Shown here piece by piece: positions 1 through 11,972 of a stretch of 64,000 nt of DNA (position 1 is its first letter; every line of letters starts with the position of its first letter). The translations under genes were made by a program, and so were the position numbers. Origin of the DNA: Lebetimonas sp. JH292. GTDB lineage: Bacteria; Campylobacterota; Campylobacteria; Campylobacterales; Nautiliaceae. The notes under the pieces are model-generated. The model did no database searches and was not told where the DNA came from. It saw only the letters and a list, made by a program, of their open reading frames with translations. The DNA is taken from positions 195,001 to 259,000 of the forward strand of contig NZ_ATHQ01000001.1 of the NCBI RefSeq assembly GCF_000523275.1. Direction: 5' to 3'.

Positions 1-1572
1 TTCCAAAGCAAAATCAAGAAGCGGTGTTGCAGGGAAAAATTCGGCTGCATATTTTTTAAGACCTTCCACTCTTTTATCAGGGTTTCTTACAGATTTAATT
101 CTATGCCCAATTCCTGGAATTGGAATACCCTGTTTTTTCATATAATTTACAAATTCTTTAGGATTCATTGAATTGTCATATGCATATTTGAAATATTTTG
201 CTGCTCCGTCAATTGCACCACCAAATCTTGGTCCAATTGTAAGAAGACCTGTTACAAGTGATTCAACAACGCTTTTTCCAGCCCTTGCTGTAACTTTGGC
301 ATTATGCGCACCACTTACGGCAGGACCGTGGTCTGCTACTGTTTTAATGACAGTTTCTATAAAATTAGTGGCCCATTTAGGATATCTTTTTTTGAACCAA
401 AGAAGTGAAATAACATCACCTATGCTGTAACCTGTATCAGGAGTAGCCACAGAACTAATAGGAATACCTGCATAAACAGCTTCTTCTCCCCTGTCGTCAC
501 TGATTGTACAAACAAAATTTCTTGGTTTTCTAATTTTTCCTGCAGCAAGAGCTTTTGAATAATCTTCAGGAACAGGCGGAACATCAGGTTCTTTAATTTC
601 TTCAATAACACCTTTTCCTTTTAATTCTTCATATACGCCTTTAATTACAAGAGGTAAATCGTTAAAGTTATCTGGAACGTGAATTCCGGCTTCTTTCATT
701 GCTCTGTTTTTAGCTTCAGCAGTTTCAGCCTGGGCATTTGCACTGGCTCCGGCATGTCCAAATTGTACCCCACTGCTGAAATATTTTGCAATAGTACCTA
801 TACACCATCCGATAACCGGTTTAGTAATTTTACCTTCTTTTATTGCTTCGATTACTTTATATTCTTCTCTTCCACCTACTTCACCAAGTAATATCATATA
901 TTTAACTTGAGGATTTTTTTCCATTCTAAGTAAATGGTCGATAAATACGCTTCCTACGAATCTGTCACCACCAATAGCAACACCTTCGGCAATTCCGTCT
1001 GCATTTAGAGCTATAATATTTGAAAGTTCGTTAAATAAACCGCCACTTCTTGTTACAAGTCCGGCACTTCCGGGTCTATGAAGTTTAGATTTTACAATAT
1101 TTTCAATGGTTCCGCCAATGTTTGCAACTTTAAATGCTCCAGGAACAATAGCACCTACAGTCGCAGGCCCTATTATAGTTACACCTTTTGCTCTTGCTTT
1201 TTTATTCATAAGCCTTGCAAGTCTTTCTGGAATTCCCTCAGCTGTTATCATAATTACCCTGAATTGATTCATATCAAGAGCTTCATTTGTTACATCATAA
1301 GCAGTTCTAAATGAACCAAAATTAAGCAAAACATCTGCATTTGAATGATTTTTCACAGCTTCAGCAGTATTTTTATAAACAGGAATCATTACTTCATCTG
1401 TTCCAAAAAAGAATTTCTCAAATTTATTAGAACTTGTTGGAGCTACAATAGCCGCAACAGACGGTTTTTCCCTTTTAATTACATAATCATAATCAAGCAT
1501 TCTTTGAATTGCTGATTTATTGTTATTCCAAAATATTGCCTGTGTATCCCTTGTAAATAGTGCATTACTCAT
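1..1572 (-). CDS. aclA: ATP-citrate lyase alpha subunit (3' end beyond window)
   Basis: Catalytic subunit of ATP-citrate lyase, which cleaves citrate with CoA and ATP to acetyl-CoA and oxaloacetate in the reductive TCA cycle. The frame is open from ATG at 1572 to the left edge (524 codons seen, no stop). The N-terminal half resembles succinyl-CoA synthetase alpha. The phospho-histidine motif GHAGASA lies around codon 260, and a citrate-synthase-like domain should follow. The start overlaps the aclB stop by one base (TAATG), so the two are translationally coupled. The identity is firm; the missing C-terminus cannot be assessed. Confidence 0.93.
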   Translation of the reverse strand, partial: MSNALFTRDTQAIFWNNNKSAIQRMLDYDYVIKREKPSVAAIVAPTSSNKFEKFFFGTDEVMIPVYKNTAEAVKNHSNADVLLNFGSFRTAYDVTNEALDMNQFRVIMITAEGIPERLARLMNKKARAKGVTIIGPATVGAIVPGAFKVANIGGTIENIVKSKLHRPGSAGLVTRSGGLFNELSNIIALNADGIAEGVAIGGDRFVGSVFIDHLLRMEKNPQVKYMILLGEVGGREEYKVIEAIKEGKITKPVIGWCIGTIAKYFSSGVQFGHAGASANAQAETAEAKNRAMKEAGIHVPDNFNDLPLVIKGVYEELKGKGVIEEIKEPDVPPVPEDYSKALAAGKIRKPRNFVCTISDDRGEEAVYAGIPISSVATPDTGYSIGDVISLLWFKKRYPKWATNFIETVIKTVADHGPAVSGAHNAKVTARAGKSVVESLVTGLLTIGPRFGGAIDGAAKYFKYAYDNSMNPKEFVNYMKKQGIPIPGIGHRIKSVRNPDKRVEGLKKYAAEFFPATPLLDFALE

Positions 1573-2906
1573 TATTCAGCTCCTTTTTTGTCATCTTCAA
1601 GTGCCATTCTAACAATATCTGTAATATGTGTTTCAGGTCCGAAAACTTTAATTGGAAGTCCAAGTTTTTCAGCCGCCGCTTTTATATCTTTAAGACCTTT
1701 TTCATAATTCGGTCCGCCTCTTCTTACATAAATTCTGACACCTACATCTTTCATTTTATCTGCATATTTGTTAAATGCCTGGATAATACCTGTAAATGTT
1801 TTGGCTACATCTGTAAAGTTTGCAATAGCTCCACCAATTATTAAAATTTTATCTCTACCCTGAGGATCTTTTTCTCTTGTCATTAAATCAAGAACAGTCT
1901 CAGTATAAAATCTTGTTTCATCAGTAGTAGGACCACCTGAATATTCACCGTAATTTGCTAATTCATTAACTCCACCGGCCAAATCTGCAATAGTATCCGC
2001 ATAAACCACTGAAGCTCCTCCGCCTGCAACAAGTGTCCAAATTCTTCCCATCGGATTTAAAATAGTAAGTTTTAATGAAGCACCGCTTTTTGCATCTGCT
2101 TCGGCTATTGCTTTTTCCTCAGGAGATTTTTCAGGCATACCAAATGGCGTAGGAAATTCAATATTCCCCCATTTATCTTTCATTAAAAATCCAGCTGTAT
2201 CGTCCAATCTTGCGACTAAATCTAAAATATAAATATTATTTCCTTGCAATACTAACGGATTTATTTCTAAATACGCAAAGTTTAAATCTCTAAAGAATTT
2301 ATAAAACTGCTCAGCAAAAGTTACAAATCTTTCTTTGTTTTCTTCCGGAATGTCAGCCGGAATATTTGCCCTTATTAAATGCTCTAAATTTGCTTCATCC
2401 ATATCTATCGGGATTTTAATTTCAGTAACTTTATCCCAGTTTTCTTCTACTTCCATTCCTCCGTGGGCACTTAAATACAACACATCATGGTAGGCATCTA
2501 ACGTGGTAGCAGCTATATAATATTCTTCATCTTCAGTGTGCGGTGTAAAAGGTTCAACTATAAAATGGGTAAGTCTTCCTTTTTGCCCACTAAGCAAAGT
2601 TACATCGTGAGAAGCTTTTTCATCTATCCATTTAGCCGCATCTTCAAGGGTAACATCTCCCGGTTTATTAACTTTAAATAAAACTAAATTGTTTTTGCCT
2701 CTCTTACCAAAAAGCATATCAGGTTTTGCAACTAAAGGTTTTTCATTTAACCATGAATATTCTTCTTTTTTGGCCAATTCTCTTAACTCGTCTCCACTGG
2801 TAACCAATACACTTTCAAACGGATAATATAATCCGCTGAAATACTTTTCCCAATTTTGTTTAAAAAGTTTTTTTCCGTCATATTCACGAATAGGTTTTTG
2901 AGCCAT
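1572..2906 (-). CDS. aclB: ATP-citrate lyase beta subunit (ATP-grasp)
   Basis: 444-residue small subunit of the two-gene ATP-citrate lyase found in autotrophic Campylobacterota. It contains an N-terminal ATP-grasp fold (metal/ATP residues around FAYLEINPLVL, residue ~215) and a CoA-ligase-like C-terminal half (GGGASVVYADTIADL, ~300; IGGAIANFTDVAKTF, ~355). ATG at 2906 has GGAGT upstream. It is the promoter-proximal gene of the aclB-aclA pair. With aclA it implies CO2 fixation by the reductive TCA cycle. Confidence 0.95.
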   Translation of the reverse strand: MAQKPIREYDGKKLFKQNWEKYFSGLYYPFESVLVTSGDELRELAKKEEYSWLNEKPLVAKPDMLFGKRGKNNLVLFKVNKPGDVTLEDAAKWIDEKASHDVTLLSGQKGRLTHFIVEPFTPHTEDEEYYIAATTLDAYHDVLYLSAHGGMEVEENWDKVTEIKIPIDMDEANLEHLIRANIPADIPEENKERFVTFAEQFYKFFRDLNFAYLEINPLVLQGNNIYILDLVARLDDTAGFLMKDKWGNIEFPTPFGMPEKSPEEKAIAEADAKSGASLKLTILNPMGRIWTLVAGGGASVVYADTIADLAGGVNELANYGEYSGGPTTDETRFYTETVLDLMTREKDPQGRDKILIIGGAIANFTDVAKTFTGIIQAFNKYADKMKDVGVRIYVRRGGPNYEKGLKDIKAAAEKLGLPIKVFGPETHITDIVRMALEDDKKGAE

Positions 2907-2990
2907 TAATACTCCTTGAATTTTATTTTAAAAATTGTATCATTTATAAAAAATATTTGTGTTTAAATAATATATATTGAAATATTTTTC

Positions 2991-4136
2991 TTAAATAGTG
3001 TTTAATTTTGAAACATTTATTTTTAAAATTATCTTATTTTTGTGAAAAATCGAAACGCTGTTTTTATTTTTACTGTAAATCAATTTATATTTATCACCTT
3101 TTTTAATACCGTAAAACTCCAAAATTTCAGATAATTTTTCATTATTGCAGCTCATACTATATATTTTTTCTTTTTTTAAAATTTCAGCCAGATTTTTGGG
3201 GAAATAAAAGCTGTAGCTTAATTTTTTTGCTGGCGTATATTTATTAAAAAACAAAGATATATCAAGCATTATTAAAGATGTAAATAAAACAACAAATAAT
3301 ATTTTATAAAATGTTCTGAATCGTGGAAGTCTGACTTTATAAGATTTTAAAAAAACATTTACCATATTGACAACAAATCCTAACGTATATGGTGCATAAT
3401 CGTCTATTTTTATTTTCTGTCTGAAAGATAAAATCAGAGAAACAAAAAAAGCCGTTGCGGAAATAAAATATATTAAATCTTTTTTATAAAAAATATTTTT
3501 ATATAACGCATACAAAAAATAGACAAATACAAACGGAGAAAAAATTAAAAAATATGTACCGAATAAATCTAAAAAATAACCTTTGGGTCTGCCGTGTATT
3601 TTATATTCAAAGTAATTTGCATTAAAAGCCAATAAAATTAGACTAAAAATAAGCAGTTTTGTATCTTTTTTATAAATAGAATAAAAAATGAGCGCCAGAT
3701 ATAATGAAATTAAACTTTTGTCAACAAAAACATACAAAATTAACAGGATATAAGAAAAATTTTTGAATTTTTCATAACTGTAAATGAATAACAGACTTAA
3801 AAAAATCAAATACACAGATTTATTGACTATCACAGAAGATATTATCATTCCCGGAATTAACATAAAAATATAAGTCGTGTAAATTATTTCTCTTTTTGTT
3901 TTCAGTTTTAATTTTGCTATATTATAAAAAATAACAACACTCAAAAATCCTGTAAATAATGAAGGAAAACGCAACGCATAATCGTTTTTCCCAAATAAAT
4001 CAAAAGAAAGATGTAAAATGTTTTTTAAAAAAGGAAAATGATTAATACTGTCTATTTCAACAAAAGAAAATGATAAAAATTCAACGCTGTATAAAAACAA
4101 AAAAAGATAAAAAATTATAATAGGCAGAAATTTCAT
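2991..4136 (-). CDS. ArnT/PMT-like membrane glycosyltransferase family protein
   Basis: 381-residue polytopic membrane protein with about ten hydrophobic segments and a shorter soluble C-terminus. The first loop after TM1 carries acidic residues (FVEIDSINHFPFLK) followed by NDYALRFPSLFTGFLSVVIFY. This resembles the first periplasmic loop of PMT_2/ArnT-type lipid-linked sugar transferases (D/E-x-x-H, then RFPS). Substrate unknown. Its start overlaps the stop of the upstream amidotransferase gene by 4 bp, so they are cotranscribed. Family assignment is by pattern only; a non-catalytic relative is possible. Confidence 0.55.
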   Translation of the reverse strand: MKFLPIIIFYLFLFLYSVEFLSFSFVEIDSINHFPFLKNILHLSFDLFGKNDYALRFPSLFTGFLSVVIFYNIAKLKLKTKREIIYTTYIFMLIPGMIISSVIVNKSVYLIFLSLLFIYSYEKFKNFSYILLILYVFVDKSLISLYLALIFYSIYKKDTKLLIFSLILLAFNANYFEYKIHGRPKGYFLDLFGTYFLIFSPFVFVYFLYALYKNIFYKKDLIYFISATAFFVSLILSFRQKIKIDDYAPYTLGFVVNMVNVFLKSYKVRLPRFRTFYKILFVVLFTSLIMLDISLFFNKYTPAKKLSYSFYFPKNLAEILKKEKIYSMSCNNEKLSEILEFYGIKKGDKYKLIYSKNKNSVSIFHKNKIILKINVSKLNTI

Positions 4137-5120: not shown

Positions 5121-5995
5121 AAGAAAAATTATTTAGTGAGAGTTTTTTAACGCTTGAAACAACTCCGCCTAAATTACCGACAATTGATCCTATGATAGAA
5201 AAATTAAAACAAACTGAAGCTTATAAATATGTAGACGGATTTACCACAACAGACTGCCCTTTAAGCAGACTAAAATACAATTCAATTATAGCAGCTTTTA
5301 AAATTCAGCAAACTTTTAATAAAAAAGTTATTGCAACAATGAGCATGAGAGACAGAAACATTATAGCGCTTCAAAGCGATTTACTTGGGGCAAACGATTT
5401 AAATGTTACAAATATTTTGGCACTAACAGGCGACCCCGCTAAAATGTCGGATCAGCCTAATGCAAAAGCGGTTGTGGAAGGAAGCAGTATAAAACTTCTT
5501 GAAATAATAAGGGCATTTAACAGCGGAATGGATTATGCGGGTAAAGAATTTAAAATAAAACCAAAACCTGTAAACCCTTTTGCAGTAACCAATTCATATG
5601 CAAAAAATTTTATTTCAATAGAAAAAAAAATTTATAAAAAAGTTAAACATTATGCTTTGGGAATAATTACCCAACCCGTATATGATATGGAAATTGTTGA
5701 AAAAATGCTTGATATTAGGGATAAAATAAGAAATAAATTTAAAGATGAAAGAAAAAAATTTGATATCGTTTTCGGTTTTTTTCCTATAACAAAACTAAAA
5801 ACAGCCCAGTTTTTACATTCTCATGTTCCAGGCATTTATGTACCGGATAGCTGGATAGAAAAATTAATTAAAGCTCATAAAATAAATGAAGAAGAAGAAT
5901 ACAAAAGAAATTTATTTAACAATTTGCAAAAAAAACACCCTAAAATTCACATCATGACAGCCAATAGATTTGAAATAGTAAAAGAGCTTTTTTAA
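5117..5995 (+). CDS. metF: Methylenetetrahydrofolate reductase-like protein
   Basis: 292-residue TIM-barrel protein of the MetF/MTHFR family, which reduces 5,10-methylene-THF to 5-methyl-THF with FAD. Visible blocks: N-terminal FLTLETTPPK (E in strand 1), TTTDCPLSR, MSMRDRN (~76), NILALTGDP (~107), GIITQPVYD (~180), GFFPITKLKTAQFLHSHVPGIYVPD (~220-245). It is shorter and more divergent than enterobacterial MetF, and may accept another electron donor. Its stop lies in a palindrome shared with the convergent porin-like remnant. Confidence 0.8.
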   Translation: MKEKLFSESFLTLETTPPKLPTIDPMIEKLKQTEAYKYVDGFTTTDCPLSRLKYNSIIAAFKIQQTFNKKVIATMSMRDRNIIALQSDLLGANDLNVTNILALTGDPAKMSDQPNAKAVVEGSSIKLLEIIRAFNSGMDYAGKEFKIKPKPVNPFAVTNSYAKNFISIEKKIYKKVKHYALGIITQPVYDMEIVEKMLDIRDKIRNKFKDERKKFDIVFGFFPITKLKTAQFLHSHVPGIYVPDSWIEKLIKAHKINEEEEYKRNLFNNLQKKHPKIHIMTANRFEIVKELF

Positions 5996-6004
5996 AAAGC
6001 TCTT
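5982..6004. terminator. Palindrome shared by two convergent gene ends
   Basis: Perfect 11+1+11 inverted repeat (AAGAGCTTTTT, one T, AAAAAGCTCTT). It contains the metF stop on the plus strand and the last codons and stop of the beta-barrel remnant on the minus strand; the two reading frames overlap by 4 bp. It probably acts as a bidirectional terminator, although the T-tract is inside the stem. Confidence 0.55.
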
Positions 6005-6752
6005 AAATAAGACAATACGTAAATATTTGAATATGCATCGTTATTATCTTCTTCAAATTTATCTCTTTCAAATGAAACTTTAATATTATTTATTTTATCT
6101 AAATTATAATTAACACTCAGTCCATAACCGTATTTATATTCATCACCAGTGTTATACACAACAAAACCGTCATTTGCTACTTTATAAGCAAATTTTCCAA
6201 ATGTTGTTTTTAAAGTTGTAGTCCAAGGGCCTTTAAAATTTTGAAATTTCAAATCAAAATTATTATAAGTATCATCAGGTGCAATACCATCTTTTGAAAT
6301 ATGAATATTATTATATTTTCCTTCCACGTAAAAACTACCAATATTTGAATAGTAATTACCAAATTAAAACCTATTTTTGGAGAAATTTGATTAACATTAA
6401 AATTTTTATAATCTGAAAAATAATAATCTATTCCCATATTGTATTTTAAATATTTGTAATAATCAATTCCACCAAACAACACTTTATTATAATTTTATAA
6501 AAATAATCCAGCTTAAAAGTAAAATCTTTTTGTTTCCAATCAGAGATATTGTTTTTATAATCAATTTTTAAATATTCCCCATCCATTTCAACCTTAACAG
6601 GCCATTGGTAATAATTATAATAAACACCTCCTAATTTTGCTTTATCTTTAGATGAACCGCTATAATCAATATAGCTTCCATAAGGCATTACAACTAATGT
6701 ATTATATGCAAAACTTAAAACTGCAACATGATAAAAAAAGAATTTTTTTCAT
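5992..6752 (-). pseudogene. Outer-membrane beta-barrel (porin-like) gene, frameshifted
   Basis: ATG at 6752 (GGAGAAAAA upstream) starts a signal-peptide-like stretch (MKKILFLS...VAVLSFA) that is frameshifted within ~20 codons. The continuation lies in three pieces: 6446-6688, 6249-6482 and 5992-6327. The pieces hold alternating aromatic/polar strands (YYNYYQWPVKVEMDGEYLKI; FDLKFQNFKGPWTTTLKTTF) and the last residue is Phe (VLSYLRAF), the signature recognised by the BAM complex. Together about 250 residues. It is the last gene of the operon that begins at 11972. No specific porin family is recognised. Confidence 0.7.
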
Positions 6753-7208
6753 TTTTTCTCCTTTAAATTTATTTTATATCCTAAATTTTTTTTATTTATT
6801 ATATCAATTCCTTTTTTTCTAAGATTTGAAATTATAACTTTAATAGAATCAATGTTTTCAATATAGTCACAATTTTCTAAAATTTCAAATTTTGAAATCT
6901 GTTTCAGCTTTTGTTAACTCTATTAAAATGTTTTTATGATGTAAGTGTTTTGTTTTAAGATTTTAAATAAACTTCTTCATATTTTATTACCTCTTTTTTT
7001 AAAATTTTTTTTCTTAAATAATTCAATCTTAAAATAATTTTTTCATATTCAGAGTACAAATAACAGTAATCACCAATATACAAAGCTTTTTTTATATCCA
7101 TTATAAAAAAAAATCAACTAAAATTACATCATACTTTTTAAAATTATCATAAACTTGTTTAAAATTAAATTCATTTGTTTCAAAAAAAGAATAATTCAAT
7201 ATATTCAT
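6749..7208 (-). pseudogene. OmpR/PhoB-like regulator, multiply frameshifted
   Basis: ATG at 7208 overlaps the end of the TPR gene (ATGA), and the TGA at 6749-6751 overlaps the porin-like start. The N-terminal part, MNILNYSFFETNEFNFKQVY followed by a hydrophobic strand with ILVDF, resembles a short receiver domain with its Asp. The C-terminal part has IELTKAETDF and IKVIISNLRKKG...KKNLGYKI, the pattern of the OmpR-type winged helix (recognition helix then GY hairpin). At least four frame changes occur in 460 bp. Probably the operon's own regulator; not functional as read. Confidence 0.6.
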
Positions 7209-7705
7209 TTTAAATATTTTTTTGCAATTATATTATTGGGATCTAAAATAATGTGTTAACATTTTATTTGCAACAGACAAAGATGATTTAAAATCTTTCT
7301 TATAATATCAAATAATAATTGGCATAAAAATTGTAATAATCTTTTTTTATTATTTTTCCCATATATAAATAAACTCTTGCTAAACCTAAAAGCGGTTCAA
7401 TAGATTGCATTTTCATAATTCTTATTTAAAAAAAACAAATATCCAAGTCTTAAATTTACAGTATATCCTCTAGGATATTTTTCATACAATGGAATAAAAA
7501 CACTAATTGCATCTTTATAATCCCCCATTTTCTCATAATTATAAGATTTATAATAAATATCTTTAATATTTAATGCAAATTTTTCATAAATTCTCCTTAA
7601 TTCAAAATTTTTTCCTTTTATTTTTTCAAACCCTTTTTCATAAAATGAAAAATAAATTTCTCCATAATCTGATTTAATACTTAAATTTTCTTTTTTATAT
7701 GTATC
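7206..7705 (-). pseudogene. TPR-repeat protein remnant, in frame behind the M23 stop
   Basis: Starting right after the stop of the UT/M23 gene, the same frame continues without a usable start codon. It encodes TPR-like helices (YKSYNYEKMGDYKDAISVF, then PLYEKYPRGYTVNLRLGYLF). Frame changes follow near 7400 and 7310; the pieces MQSIEPLLGLARVYLYMGK and NNIIAKKYLK complete it, and the stop overlaps the regulator start. It could be a lost C-terminal part of the M23 protein or a separate gene whose start was lost. Confidence 0.5.
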
Positions 7706-9384
7706 TTATTCTAAAAAAGATTTAAAATTAAATGGTAACAAAAATTCAATTAAAATTAATTTAAATTTATTAAGCCTTATGTCCAGTGGCAACACATCCT
7801 CATAATATATATTTTTATTAATAAGAGGAATTTTTGGAACTAATTTAAAAATTTCCTTAAGATATGAATCTTTTCCATCATACACATAAAAATAAAACAG
7901 TTTACCCTGCATATAAAAAAACAGTTTGTTTTTACCATCAAACAGGTAAAATTCCCCTTTGTCATTCATTTTAACTATAAATTCAACTATTTCACTTTTT
8001 TCATTTTTATATTTGTAAATATCATCTAAAATAAAATTAAATCTAAGTTTCATTGATTTATCTAAAATTGTTGCTTCAATTTCTTCATCCTTTTTAGGCA
8101 AAGAGTAAAAATATAATTTATTCTCCTTTATATAATCATAAAATTTAAAAGGAACAGTTTCACTTCCCAAAATTCCGTACTTTTGAACCTGAATATGTAT
8201 GTGAGGTTCTGGGGAATAACCGCTGTTTCCACATTTTCCTATAATATCTCCAACTTTCACATAATCTCCGACATTAACTTTTGCAGAATACTGCATTAAA
8301 TGGGATATTTCTACAAAAAAACCTAAATCACTTTTTAAAATTATATAATTTCCCCAATTATTAACTCTATCAACTTCTCCAATTATATTATCTTTTAAGT
8401 CATCTCTTTTTGCAACAATATAACCATTTACAGGTGAAAGAACGTTTTCTCCAAAAGCATAATAATCTTCTAAAAAAAGACCTTCATTTTTATATGTTTT
8501 ACCATTTTTTTTAATCACAAAATCGTATGCATATTTCCATTTTCCTATATGTGTCCATTTTCCATCAAAAGCCTGGTATACCGTCCATTTACCAGAAAAA
8601 GGCAAATGAATTTTAATATCATTACCTCCAAACCTGAATGTAGAACTCAAAAAAGAAATTAAAGATTTTTCAGGTGTCCCTTTTATTGAATAATTAAAAT
8701 AAACATACCCTACACTATATAAAAATCACTAAAATTGTTATAAAATTAAAAGGCAATGTATAAACCGGCAAAGAATATAATTTAAATGTTGGAAGTAAAA
8801 ATACACCGCCCACTGCCATAGCAATAAGTATAAAATTAAAATTATATGGGGAATTTAAAGCATTATAATAATTTGTAAAAAAAGAGTGAAAGTAAACTCC
8901 TGCATAAAAACCTATCAAAGATAGAAAAAATAAAATTCTAGAGTAAATTAAACCAGCCGCTTCAAAAAGTAAAAAAAATATTACTCAACAAATTTGTATA
9001 TTTAAAACTTGCTAAATAAAAAAACATACTAACAATTGCAAAAGGAAATGATAAAATAGGTAAAAAATATTTTATAAAAACCTTATTTAAATAAACAGAC
9101 ATTAAAAAAGTTAAAATAGATAAAATAGTGGCAATACTTACATCAAAATAAAATCCAACACCCATTCCCACAAGAAGTGAATTATAAAGATAAAAACCAT
9201 ATTTTATATATTCTTCTCTAATTTTAATTAATTCTGCAAAAACGATAGTCGAAATAATAGCAACAACTCCTAAAATTCCAACACTAGGAAGTAAAAAAGA
9301 AAGAAAAAATAAAACAATTCCTGCCTTCACATCCCTTAAAAAAAGAATAGAAATATAAGGCTTAAATAATATTTTTAAATCCAT
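7706..9384 (-). pseudogene. Urea-transporter-like channel fused to M23 peptidase, frameshifted
   Basis: One ~560-residue frame can be rebuilt from ATG 9384. A polytopic domain (8962-9384, then 8715-8918) with FYLYNSLLVGMGVGFYFD and FILIAMAVGGVFLLPT resembles the UT (urea transporter) family. It runs on through YFNYSIKGTPEKS into a LytM/M23 domain (7706-8650) with SPVNGYIVAKRD, EISHLMQYS and PHIHIQVQ (the H and HxH zinc ligands); the first ligand motif reads YAYDF. Frameshifts sit at an A8 run near 8970 and at about 8715. M23 enzymes cut peptidoglycan cross-bridges; what the channel carries is unknown. Confidence 0.65.
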
Positions 9385-9391
9385 TTTTTTC

Positions 9392-10729
9392 CTATTTTAA
9401 ATAATTCGGAATAATTTCTTTTTCAATAACATAATCCAAATCATCAGCCTCTCTAATTAAATGAGAAGTTGAACTTTTATCAATAAAAGACAGACTTTTG
9501 GACGATATCTAATAAACTGCATTGATTGAGTATAATTATATGCACCAACAGGCCAAAGACTCAATACACTCCCCCGCTCAAGCGGAGGCAACATTATATT
9601 TTCTGCAATAACATCTATATTCATACAAAGTGGACCATTTATCATTGACGGTTCGTTTAATCCTTCATATCTTTTATCAAGTGCTATATCAAAATTATAC
9701 CAAAATGCTGTATATAACAAATTAACTCCTGCATCCACAATATAACCTTTTTTACCGTCTGGAAATCTTTTTGATGCAAATACAGATGTGAGTAAATAGC
9801 CAGCTTCATCAATTAATGCCCTACCAGTTTCTAAATAAAGTTTTGGTAATTTTTTATCATTAAATTCATAAATTGCATTTGTAACTGCTTCTGCATATTC
9901 ATCCGCGCTTGGCACTATAACCTCTGGAGGTTGATATACACCTTTTAATCTGTTTTTACTAGCAAATCCTCCACCAATGTCAATATATTCAATTTCATAT
10001 CCAAAATCTTCTTGCACTTTTTTTCTAAGATCCATTAATTTTCTAACTTCATTTGCGTAAGCATTTGCTACTAAACATAAAGGTTCCAATATGGGCATGA
10101 AGCCCTGTTAAATACAGTTTCTTACCTTTATAAATTCTTTTAATTGCTTCATAAGCTTCTCCATTATCTATATTAAATCCAAATCTGCTCCATTGAGGAT
10201 AAATACCTGTATCCATATTGCATCTAATTGCCACAGGAATATTAATTCCAAACTCATCCGCAATATCTTCTAAATCGTTAATTTCATAAAGATGGTCGAT
10301 ATGAATTTTAGCACCCTCTTTTACCGCAACTTTTAATGCTTCTTTTGGTTTATATGGACCATTAAAAATTATATCTTTTCCATCAATGCCGTTTCTTCTT
10401 GCTTTTTGATATTCAAATTCGCTTACAACTTCAGCTTTGCTCCCAAGTTTATGATAAATTTTACAAATAGCATCTAAATAATTAGTTTTATAACTCCACC
10501 AAAATTCAACCTCTGGATATCTGCTTGAAAAAGCTTCTTTAAATTCTAAATATTTATCTTCAATACTCCTTTGACTGAAAACAAATAGAGGTGAGCCGAA
10601 TTTTTCAACTAAATCCCTAACTTTTACTCCATCTATTTCACTTCTTATTTTTTGAGATTTAAGAGGTGAGCCGTATTTACTTGCAAGTGCAAAATCAACT
10701 CTATTTATTGTAGGTTTTTCATAATTCAT
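9392..10729 (-). pseudogene. PLP-dependent decarboxylase of the DAP/ornithine (fold III) family, two frameshifts
   Basis: About 445 residues across frames 10049-10729, 9457-10098 and a tail ending at 9392. PLP lysine lies in FWWSYKTNYLD (~83), with GLHAHIGTF (~210), YIDIGGGF (~250), LETGRALIDEAG (~310) and the catalytic Cys in GPLCMNIDVIAEN (~380). The first shift, near 10080, looks like one extra T; the second lies near 9490. It follows the ATP-grasp gene by 10 bp. The family acts on diaminopimelate, arginine, ornithine or carboxy-spermidine. This is not the housekeeping lysA by context; substrate unknown. Confidence 0.7.
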
Positions 10730-10738
10730 TTTTTCTCC

Positions 10739-11740
10739 TTAAAGTTCTTTTTTATTCATTAATGTTAAAAACTGTTTAAAATCAACACTTAATTCTTCCA
10801 CATACCTTACATACATTTTTTCAAGTGGATAATCTAAATTTTGTTTTACATTTTTACCATTTATTAATTCTATTAATATCTGAGGAAGATTAACTCCTAA
10901 ATCAGTAGCAAAATAAACCCATGCCGGAAATCTGGGATTTATCTCAATTAAATAAATTTCATTGTTATAAACCATTGCTTCAAGCTCAAACGCCCCTCTC
11001 CAATTTTTAGAAAATTCAACTGCTAAATTTAAAAGTTTTTCATTTTTAATACTTACCGCGCTCCAAACTTTTCCTAAATCCGTGGTTGTCAATTTTTTTA
11101 TACCAACACCGCCTTTTAATTCATAATTACTGATTCCTACATAATTAATTTCAATTCCGTTAATAACTTCCTGTACTAAAAGAGGAAAACCCCACTCATT
11201 TGAAATTTTGTAAAAATATTCAATTGCTTCATCTAAATTATAGGCTTTATAAGCTTTGTAATAATTTCCTTTAACCATTATCGGAAAACCCAGCTCTTTT
11301 GTGGCAGAGATTAAATCATCAAGAGATAAAATTTTAATAGTTTTAGGATGTTTAACACCAAGTTTTTTACAAAATTCGCTAAGTTTTGATTTATCTCTCA
11401 TTTCAAACTGTTTAAGGGTTGGTAAAAATGTTTTTAATCCCAATTCTTCAATGTTTTTCTGATATTTAATATATAAAGGTAGTTCAGCATCTAAGTTTGG
11501 TATTAAAACATTAATATCAGATTTTTCCTTAATATATCTGATTCTGTTTTCAAACTCTTCATAACCAAGAGTTGGATAAGGCATTAAATAAACTTTTTCA
11601 AATAAATCCTGATAAACTCCCGGCTCATTTGGGTCATAACTTAAGCCAATTAATTTATATTTATCTTTTAAACTTTTGGCAACTCCTATACCAGGAGCTG
11701 GATTGTCAGTGTTATTTAATCCACTAATTGCTATTTTCAT
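10739..11740 (-). CDS. ATP-grasp carboxylate-amine ligase
   Basis: 333-residue CarB-type ATP-grasp enzyme: N-terminal Rossmann-like preATP-grasp (MKIAISGLNN...GIGVAKSL), ATP-binding strand GFPIMVKGNYYKAYKAYN (~150-168), LVQEVINGIEINY (~190), and metal-binding YLIEINPRFPAW (~277). It should join a carboxylate to an amine or thiol through an acyl-phosphate. Its start overlaps the PqqD-like gene by 17 bp, and a PLP decarboxylase follows. The trio suggests modification of an amino acid or small peptide; the substrate is not identifiable. Confidence 0.8.
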   Translation of the reverse strand: MKIAISGLNNTDNPAPGIGVAKSLKDKYKLIGLSYDPNEPGVYQDLFEKVYLMPYPTLGYEEFENRIRYIKEKSDINVLIPNLDAELPLYIKYQKNIEELGLKTFLPTLKQFEMRDKSKLSEFCKKLGVKHPKTIKILSLDDLISATKELGFPIMVKGNYYKAYKAYNLDEAIEYFYKISNEWGFPLLVQEVINGIEINYVGISNYELKGGVGIKKLTTTDLGKVWSAVSIKNEKLLNLAVEFSKNWRGAFELEAMVYNNEIYLIEINPRFPAWVYFATDLGVNLPQILIELINGKNVKQNLDYPLEKMYVRYVEELSVDFKQFLTLMNKKEL

Positions 11741-11972
11741 TGATTAGCCCATAAATTTTTAATTTTTGAAAAAAATCATTAACATCAATATAAACTTCTC
11801 TCCAATCTTTATTAGTTTCAGATGAAATAATAGATATTATTTCATCTTTATTTTTACCTTCTTTAATTAGCTCAATAATTCTTTTTGCTGTATCATTTAA
11901 CTGAAAGGTAATACCAAGAGATGGAATAAATCCCATATTATTTTCATCAATAACCATTTCATTTATCAACAT
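11724..11972 (-). CDS. PqqD-like peptide-recognition protein
   Basis: 82-residue protein with the small winged-helix PqqD/RRE fold: N-terminal strands MVIDENNMGFIPSLGITFQLNDTAK-like in pattern, then helices IELIKEGKNKDEII and WREVYIDVNDFFQKLKIYGLI. PqqD proteins bind precursor peptides and hand them to modifying enzymes. First gene of the seven-gene minus operon, 70 bp downstream of guaB. AAGGAG lies 7 bases before the ATG. No precursor peptide gene was recognised nearby. Confidence 0.65.
   Translation of the reverse strand: MLINEMVIDENNMGFIPSLGITFQLNDTAKRIIELIKEGKNKDEIISIISSETNKDWREVYIDVNDFFQKLKIYGLINENSN

Follow-up and report, generated by a model that had tools for sequence, protein, structure and literature searches.

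A recurrent operon of a PqqD-like protein, an ATP-grasp ligase, a tagged decarboxylase and envelope proteins, broken in Lebetimonas sp. JH292: a working model

What could a small peptide-binding protein, a ligase, a decarboxylase, a membrane channel fused to a cell-wall peptidase and an outer-membrane barrel have to do with one another? The question is raised by a run of seven minus-strand genes at positions 5992–11972 of a 64,000-nucleotide stretch of the Lebetimonas sp. JH292 genome (contig NZ_ATHQ01000001.1, positions 195,001 to 259,000; this stretch is referred to as the window). A sequence-only reading of the window had taken the run for a candidate undescribed operon and suggested that it makes or tailors a small amino acid or peptide product and serves envelope passage or sensing. 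In the present analysis the genes were followed through other genomes. That they form a functional unit is close to certain, and the unit is apparently undescribed: a search of the open literature, which did not extend to the 2009 amidoligase survey of Iyer et al. with its possible listing of such a neighbourhood, returned no description of the gene set. The most likely working model, held at slightly less than even confidence, is synthesis of a small decarboxylated amide organised by a RiPP recognition element (RRE; RiPP, ribosomally synthesised and post-translationally modified peptide), combined with passage of the product through the envelope.

Linkage, spread and decay of the gene set

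An alignment of the ATP-grasp protein was used to scan 84,980 species genomes, which gave 528 relatives, and the best 80 loci were analysed; neighbour counts refer to the loci whose contig permits the test. The ATP-grasp gene is accompanied by the PqqD gene at 73 of 74 loci (58 called open reading frames (ORFs) and 15 in overlapping frames), by the decarboxylase gene at 68 of 69 and by the fused urea transporter (UT)/M23 gene at 57 of 59; the barrel (42/47), the tetratricopeptide repeat (TPR) protein (39/47) and the regulator (15/43) follow. Intergenic gaps are mostly 30 bp or shorter across the loci. The order is the same in most relatives from the family and the order, the genes on either side differ, and the arrangement recurs across phyla, which is more than chance. 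Adjacency in other genomes, on which the sequence-only reading had staked its operon, was thus found in many unrelated genomes.

These 80 loci bear bacterial names from about ten phyla: Campylobacterota, Aquificota, Thermotogota, Thermodesulfobacteriota-type, Verrucomicrobia, Bdellovibrionota and Gamma- and Alphaproteobacteria, together with Francisella sp. SYW-9 and Thiomargarita (both proteobacterial), Melioribacter, Firestonebacteria, Eremiobacterota and Gracilibacteria; many of the loci come from metagenome bins, and the names Klebsiella, Akkermansia and Gracilibacteria are probably mislabelled or misbinned. The ATP-grasp gene occurs in 18 of 397 Campylobacterota genomes, and a UT above the cut-off occurs in exactly these and in one further genome, there as a lone UT. 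Pairwise divergences of the operon proteins are correlated (r=0.73–0.94). Because neighbour counts, short gaps, correlated divergence and matching presence sets agree, the operon has therefore been inherited as a unit, and it has probably also been transferred as one. Horizontal transfer is suggested by sequence identity: the ATP-grasp protein of Francisella sp. SYW-9 (locus L089) is 58 % identical to that of the window, and the Thiotrichaceae/Thiomargarita copies are 45–46 % identical. Intact recurrence under about ten phylum names, in near-fixed order and with the catalytic residues kept, means that the set must have a useful function.

No further core genes were found among the neighbours, where only the OmpR regulator/kinase pair recurs widely; the neighbour families present in at least seven loci are regulators and kinases only, and all others were shown in at most four. 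A known anti-phage defence system was rejected, as none of the seven proteins is matched by a PADLOC model of known defence. At one locus (L052, G049, 440–3003, operon orientation) only the PqqD, ATP-grasp and decarboxylase genes are kept, without UT/M23, which suggests that this enzyme trio can stand alone. The lone UT (G378:C34:14943–15743, 274 aa), the sole stand-alone UT among the Campylobacterota genomes, is probably a genuine urea channel.

Damage to the window copy was assessed by reading all frames in the window against the genome of a sister species (G001). The window genome measures 1.64 Mb, and the related loci belong to the Nautiliaceae and other Campylobacterota. In the sister species, all seven genes are intact, in the same order and one direction, with small overlaps or gaps; from PqqD to barrel the proteins have 82, 333, 444, 667, 195, 196 and 274 aa. 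The tight run described by the sequence-only reading is real: the PqqD and ATP-grasp genes overlap by 17 bp, the decarboxylase gene (start 10729) follows after about 9–10 bp and the UT gene (start 9384) after 7 bp, and the regulator stop and barrel start share an ATGA overlap. Its domain calls were likewise confirmed (PF05402, CarB/PRK12767, Orn/DAP/Arg decarboxylase, PF03253, M23 and TPR), that of the regulator by a Trans_reg_C match in the sister species and that of the barrel by a homologue that models as 14 strands. What it missed is the state of the genes: gene train and order are as described, and in the window genome PqqD and ATP-grasp alone are intact, the other five genes being broken. 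Relative to the sister genome, the decarboxylase gene carries insertions of +1 at ∼10069 and +2 at ∼9494, and in the UT/M23, TPR, regulator and barrel genes the frame is shifted by deletions, of which many measure 11–92 bp; the flanking IleS, GatA, GuaB, MTHFR, TrpG and other genes are unbroken. A second UT copy was not found in the window genome.

The ratio of nonsynonymous to synonymous substitutions (dN/dS) in the leftover codons is 0.07–0.17 in the operon versus 0.03–0.12 in neighbour genes, and because it has stayed low, the loss of the operon would be recent. Some 15 sequencing errors are unlikely as the cause, given the many 11–92 bp deletions, their limitation to the operon and the clean neighbours. 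A local assembly fault is the less likely cause and still a possible one, since the low dN/dS allows only very recent decay. In a second genome of the order (L051, G092, 8468–11912) the decarboxylase gene is split and the UT/M23 gene lies in three pieces, so that operon loss or frameshift is not unique to the window genome.

The PqqD-like protein, the tagged decarboxylase and the ligase

The first gene (11724–11972, minus strand) encodes an intact, discrete RRE of 82 aa that matches Pfam PqqD (PF05402, 1.7e-9); its top NCBIfam match is the lasso PqqD chaperone NF033530 (1.7e-6), and a profile search of the PDB returned the lasso RREs TbiB1 (2.2e-7) and TfuB1 (1.1e-4). Judged by these matches, its closest relatives are the lasso-peptide RREs. 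A carrier-protein role was rejected, as no Ser is strictly invariant in the alignment and no other residue is an obvious site of attachment.

Since PqqD-like proteins near modifying enzymes or transporters usually mark RiPP clusters (PMC7470986), the operon might encode a RiPP-like route in which a ribosomal peptide, either the product of a gene elsewhere or the decarboxylase N terminus itself, is recruited by the RRE for modification by the ATP-grasp protein and the decarboxylase. The closeness of lasso RREs in the PDB and a leader-like motif on the decarboxylase speak for such a route. We nevertheless regard it as unlikely: a search of the 800 bp ahead of PqqD across the loci turned up no short ORF conserved outside close relatives, the core genes are packed too tightly to conceal a precursor ORF between them, no lasso cyclase (PF00733) or leader protease (B2) family recurs among the neighbours, and the motif does not exceed the background rate in the other operon proteins. 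The peptide-binding fold of the sequence-only reading has thus proved to be an RRE, whereas the separate short peptide that it had suggested looking for near the PqqD gene did not appear outside close relatives; a tag on the decarboxylase probably takes its place.

This tag (10706–10723, minus strand) reads YEKPTI in the window and belongs to an N-terminal extension of ∼25–30 residues that lies ahead of the shared decarboxylase fold and starts Y-x-K-P-x-I. All decarboxylases with a complete N terminus carry Y..P.[IM]; within the first 25 residues the motif is found in 69 of 77 decarboxylase ORFs versus 8 of 804 unrelated ORFs, and in none of the 59 PqqD and 79 ATP-grasp ORFs. It is absent from the LysA, SpeA-like and NspC-like paralogues of the window genome. 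Lasso leaders bear the comparable YxxPxL (PMC10368454), and several RRE groups recognise W/Y/LxxP/L/I in a β3/α3 cleft (PMC12710340). As no conserved short ORF was found by the PqqD gene, the partner of the PqqD-like protein is probably the decarboxylase N terminus and not a separate short peptide. Docking of the tag by the PqqD-like protein is the simplest reading, because the tag is near-invariant, the RRE is closest to those of lasso peptides, a precursor ORF was not found and the PqqD and ATP-grasp genes overlap; we consider this docking rather probable.

The decarboxylase itself (9392–10729, minus strand, with the two frameshifts given above) belongs to the pyridoxal phosphate (PLP)-dependent Orn/DAP/Arg decarboxylases of the alanine-racemase fold. 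Its top PDB match is N-citrylornithine decarboxylase (FslC/FigC; 7kh2, 7.8e-70), and diaminopimelate (DAP) decarboxylase is also near. FigC contacts citrate through H357 and R387, and its group includes enzymes for conjugated amino acids (SbnH, AcsE, MccE and BtrK) as well as DAPDC and D-ODC (PMC7857480). In the 65 decarboxylases compared, K80 (the PLP lysine), G251–G253 (the Gly loop) and the catalytic C367 are invariant, the active loop reads CMNID in 65/65, the C-E-S motif of DAP decarboxylases is absent, and Ile and Gln replace the FigC residues H357 and R387 in 65/65. An intact homologue stays below the cut-offs for LysA (229.5 versus 297.9) and FslC (212.9 versus 500), and a separate true LysA (543 bits) is encoded elsewhere in the window genome. 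The enzyme is therefore neither a housekeeping LysA nor a rhizoferrin enzyme, which removes the objection, foreseen in the sequence-only reading, that the enzymes might belong to housekeeping families. Because the citrate contacts are replaced, the CMNID loop is uniform and the true LysA lies elsewhere, the decarboxylase is, by sequence, a distinct and uniform specificity group; its substrate is probably a conjugate and not a citryl one.

The ATP-grasp ligase (10739–11740, minus strand, 333 aa, intact) is of the CarB/PRK12767 type (NCBIfam PRK12767, 6.8e-21; carbamoyl-phosphate synthetase large chain in the PDB, 8.8e-15). Residues K157, E252/E254, E266 and N268 (K157, E255/E257, E269 and N271 in the numbering of locus L053) are invariant in 71 sequences, and we take these Lys, Glu and Asn positions to be the ATP/Mg-binding residues of the ATP-grasp fold.

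Envelope proteins and regulator

The fused gene (7580–9384, minus strand) has suffered several frameshifts and deletions and was evaluated in the sister species, where the 667 aa protein combines a UT-type channel (2.9e-60), an M23 peptidase (7.9e-13) and a C-terminal β-rich domain. The UT domain covers the full length of PF03253 (204.3 versus a Pfam cut-off of 25 bits), and it keeps LP-box-like repeats and the N69/P115/P272 positions, as expected of a pore. The polar filter of dvUT presumably consists of Q24 and E187; the positions aligned to it are mostly S/A/E and T/A/S, and the score for Yut is 96.9 versus a cut-off of 274.6. As the filter-aligned polar positions are changed, true urea transport was rejected, and urea itself is a doubtful cargo.

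In the M23 part, the His/Asp set H341, D350, H424, H457 and H459 is invariant in 61 sequences, which argues against an inactive domain and for a probably active metallopeptidase. Its first motif spans nine positions (H x8 D); the usual one spans four. The M23 and C-terminal part of a homologue was modelled with a pLDDT (predicted local distance difference test) of 93.8, and the M23 region came close to the domains of LytM, DipM and lysostaphin. The last ∼170 residues of the fusion (L033, 10135–12135, approximately residues 490–660) are β-rich and were confidently modelled in a homologue; this domain has no Pfam family and no match among the structure hits listed.

These features could also be explained by wall remodelling or sensing, in which the cytoplasmic enzymes work on a precursor of peptidoglycan or on a signal and the UT/M23 protein acts as a ligand-gated transmembrane endopeptidase. 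The invariant catalytic residues and LytM-like models of the M23 domain favour this explanation, as does the regulator or kinase that often adjoins the operon. It is, however, improbable in our judgement: the UT keeps its LP-box-like repeats and pore positions, the OmpG-like barrel described below suggests passage of small solutes, and the uniform CMNID loop without C-E-S motif does not fit.

The remaining genes are present in the window as broken minus-strand remnants. The periplasmic TPR protein (7208–7587; 195 aa and intact in the sister species) and the barrel (5992–6752) begin with signal-like segments. A barrel homologue was modelled with 14 strands (pLDDT 92), and its top PDB fold matches are OmpG and then CymA at a TM-score of about 0.6–0.7; a Pfam family for the barrel was not found. 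In the operon of the Nautiliales, the orphan regulator (6749–7208; 196 aa in the sister species, Trans_reg_C 6.3e-5) is of an atypical OmpR type, and at some other loci a regulator and a histidine kinase stand directly upstream of PqqD.

In five Nautiliales genomes a TAXI-type tripartite ATP-independent periplasmic (TRAP) transporter (NMT1_3 binding protein and DctM permease) lies directly upstream of PqqD (L035, 4517–7644; L037, L040, L041 and L043), and GuaB is on its other side where the contig is long enough; this may point to import of a substrate. The transporter also lends some support to an uptake or scavenging function, in which a small nitrogen compound that the wall releases or binds enters through barrel and UT and is assimilated by the ATP-grasp protein and the decarboxylase, as does the fact that uptake is what UT proteins are mostly known for. 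This is the least probable of the explanations and quite unlikely, as the TRAP genes are not a recurring feature of the broader set of loci and ATP-dependent ligation followed by decarboxylation is biosynthetic, not catabolic, in known relatives (PMC7857480).

Working model and comparison with known systems

The observed linkage, catalytic residues, tag and barrel model are joined in a model of amide synthesis and export, from which we infer docking, the order of the chemistry, the product and the direction of transport. The PqqD-like RRE would bind the YxxPxI tag and thereby hold the decarboxylase beside the ATP-grasp ligase, which would use ATP to couple an amino acid with a second compound, a carboxylate or an amine. 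Removal of the α-carboxylate from the conjugate would then fall to the decarboxylase, whose closest characterised relatives work in this way on conjugated amino acids; by this analogy, amide synthesis followed by decarboxylation has about an even chance of being correct. For the small neutral amide, the UT-type channel would be the way across the inner membrane and the OmpG-like 14-strand barrel the way across the outer one, an outward passage proposed tentatively. In the periplasm, the TPR protein and the M23 part of the fusion may act on peptidoglycan or cargo, and the OmpR-type regulator, sometimes with a histidine kinase, would control expression. The small product with envelope passage of the sequence-only reading fits all of these parts, with product and direction its conjectural side. 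As a tentative general view, an RRE known from RiPP biosynthesis would have given up its precursor peptide for an enzyme-fused, leader-like tag, so that ligase and decarboxylase would form one assembly whose product would pass the envelope by way of the channel–peptidase fusion and a barrel of its own.

Several points weigh against this model. The chemistry is proposed from sequence; the scores of all operon proteins stay below the cut-offs of specific functional models, and membership of so broad a family as ATP-grasp does not point to a substrate. What is read as a tag could instead serve the decarboxylase as a structural strand at its N terminus, the structures being models of single chains. 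UT channels are passive and do not fix the direction of passage. Common ancestry inflates both the divergence correlations and the co-occurrence. Finally, the envelope genes are broken in the window genome while the ligase and PqqD genes persist; from this no more follows than that this organism can do without the operon. If docking of the tag is true, RREs serve beyond ribosomal peptides, and mining rules that use PqqD as a RiPP marker need revision; the fusion of a urea-channel fold with a wall peptidase would be a new coupling of solute passage to the cell wall.

Several parts of the operon have counterparts in known systems. With the discrete B1 proteins of lasso systems (TbiB1, TfuB1 and the related RRE FusE) the operon shares the PqqD-like fold and a YxxPx(I/L) motif, which is carried here by a 444 aa decarboxylase instead of a short precursor, with neither lasso cyclase nor leader protease recurring nearby. 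The decarboxylase is most similar, by PDB profile search, to FslC/FigC of the rhizoferrin pathway, and the active loop has Cys-Met in both; the operon differs by an ATP-grasp ligase in place of an NIS (NRPS-independent siderophore) synthetase and by the Ile/Gln replacement of H357/R387. Butirosin biosynthesis combines a small protein, an ATP-grasp protein and an alanine-racemase-fold decarboxylase acting on a bound amino acid (BtrI, BtrJ, which we take to be the ATP-grasp ligase, and BtrK), as in the operon, whose small protein is, however, an RRE and not an acyl carrier, lacking a strictly invariant Ser for the phosphopantetheine arm. The bacterial urea transporters dvUT and Yut share the UT fold, the full-length PF03253 match and the LP-box-like repeats, and differ from the operon UT in the M23 fusion, the polar filter positions and the Yut score. 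The M23/LytM endopeptidases (DipM, lysostaphin and Csd) have the same fold and invariant His/Asp set, whereas the operon domain has a wider first motif, is fused to a channel and is followed by a domain of no matched fold. OmpG and CymA, finally, have 14 strands like the predicted barrel, to which they bear no detectable sequence relation (10–14 % identity).

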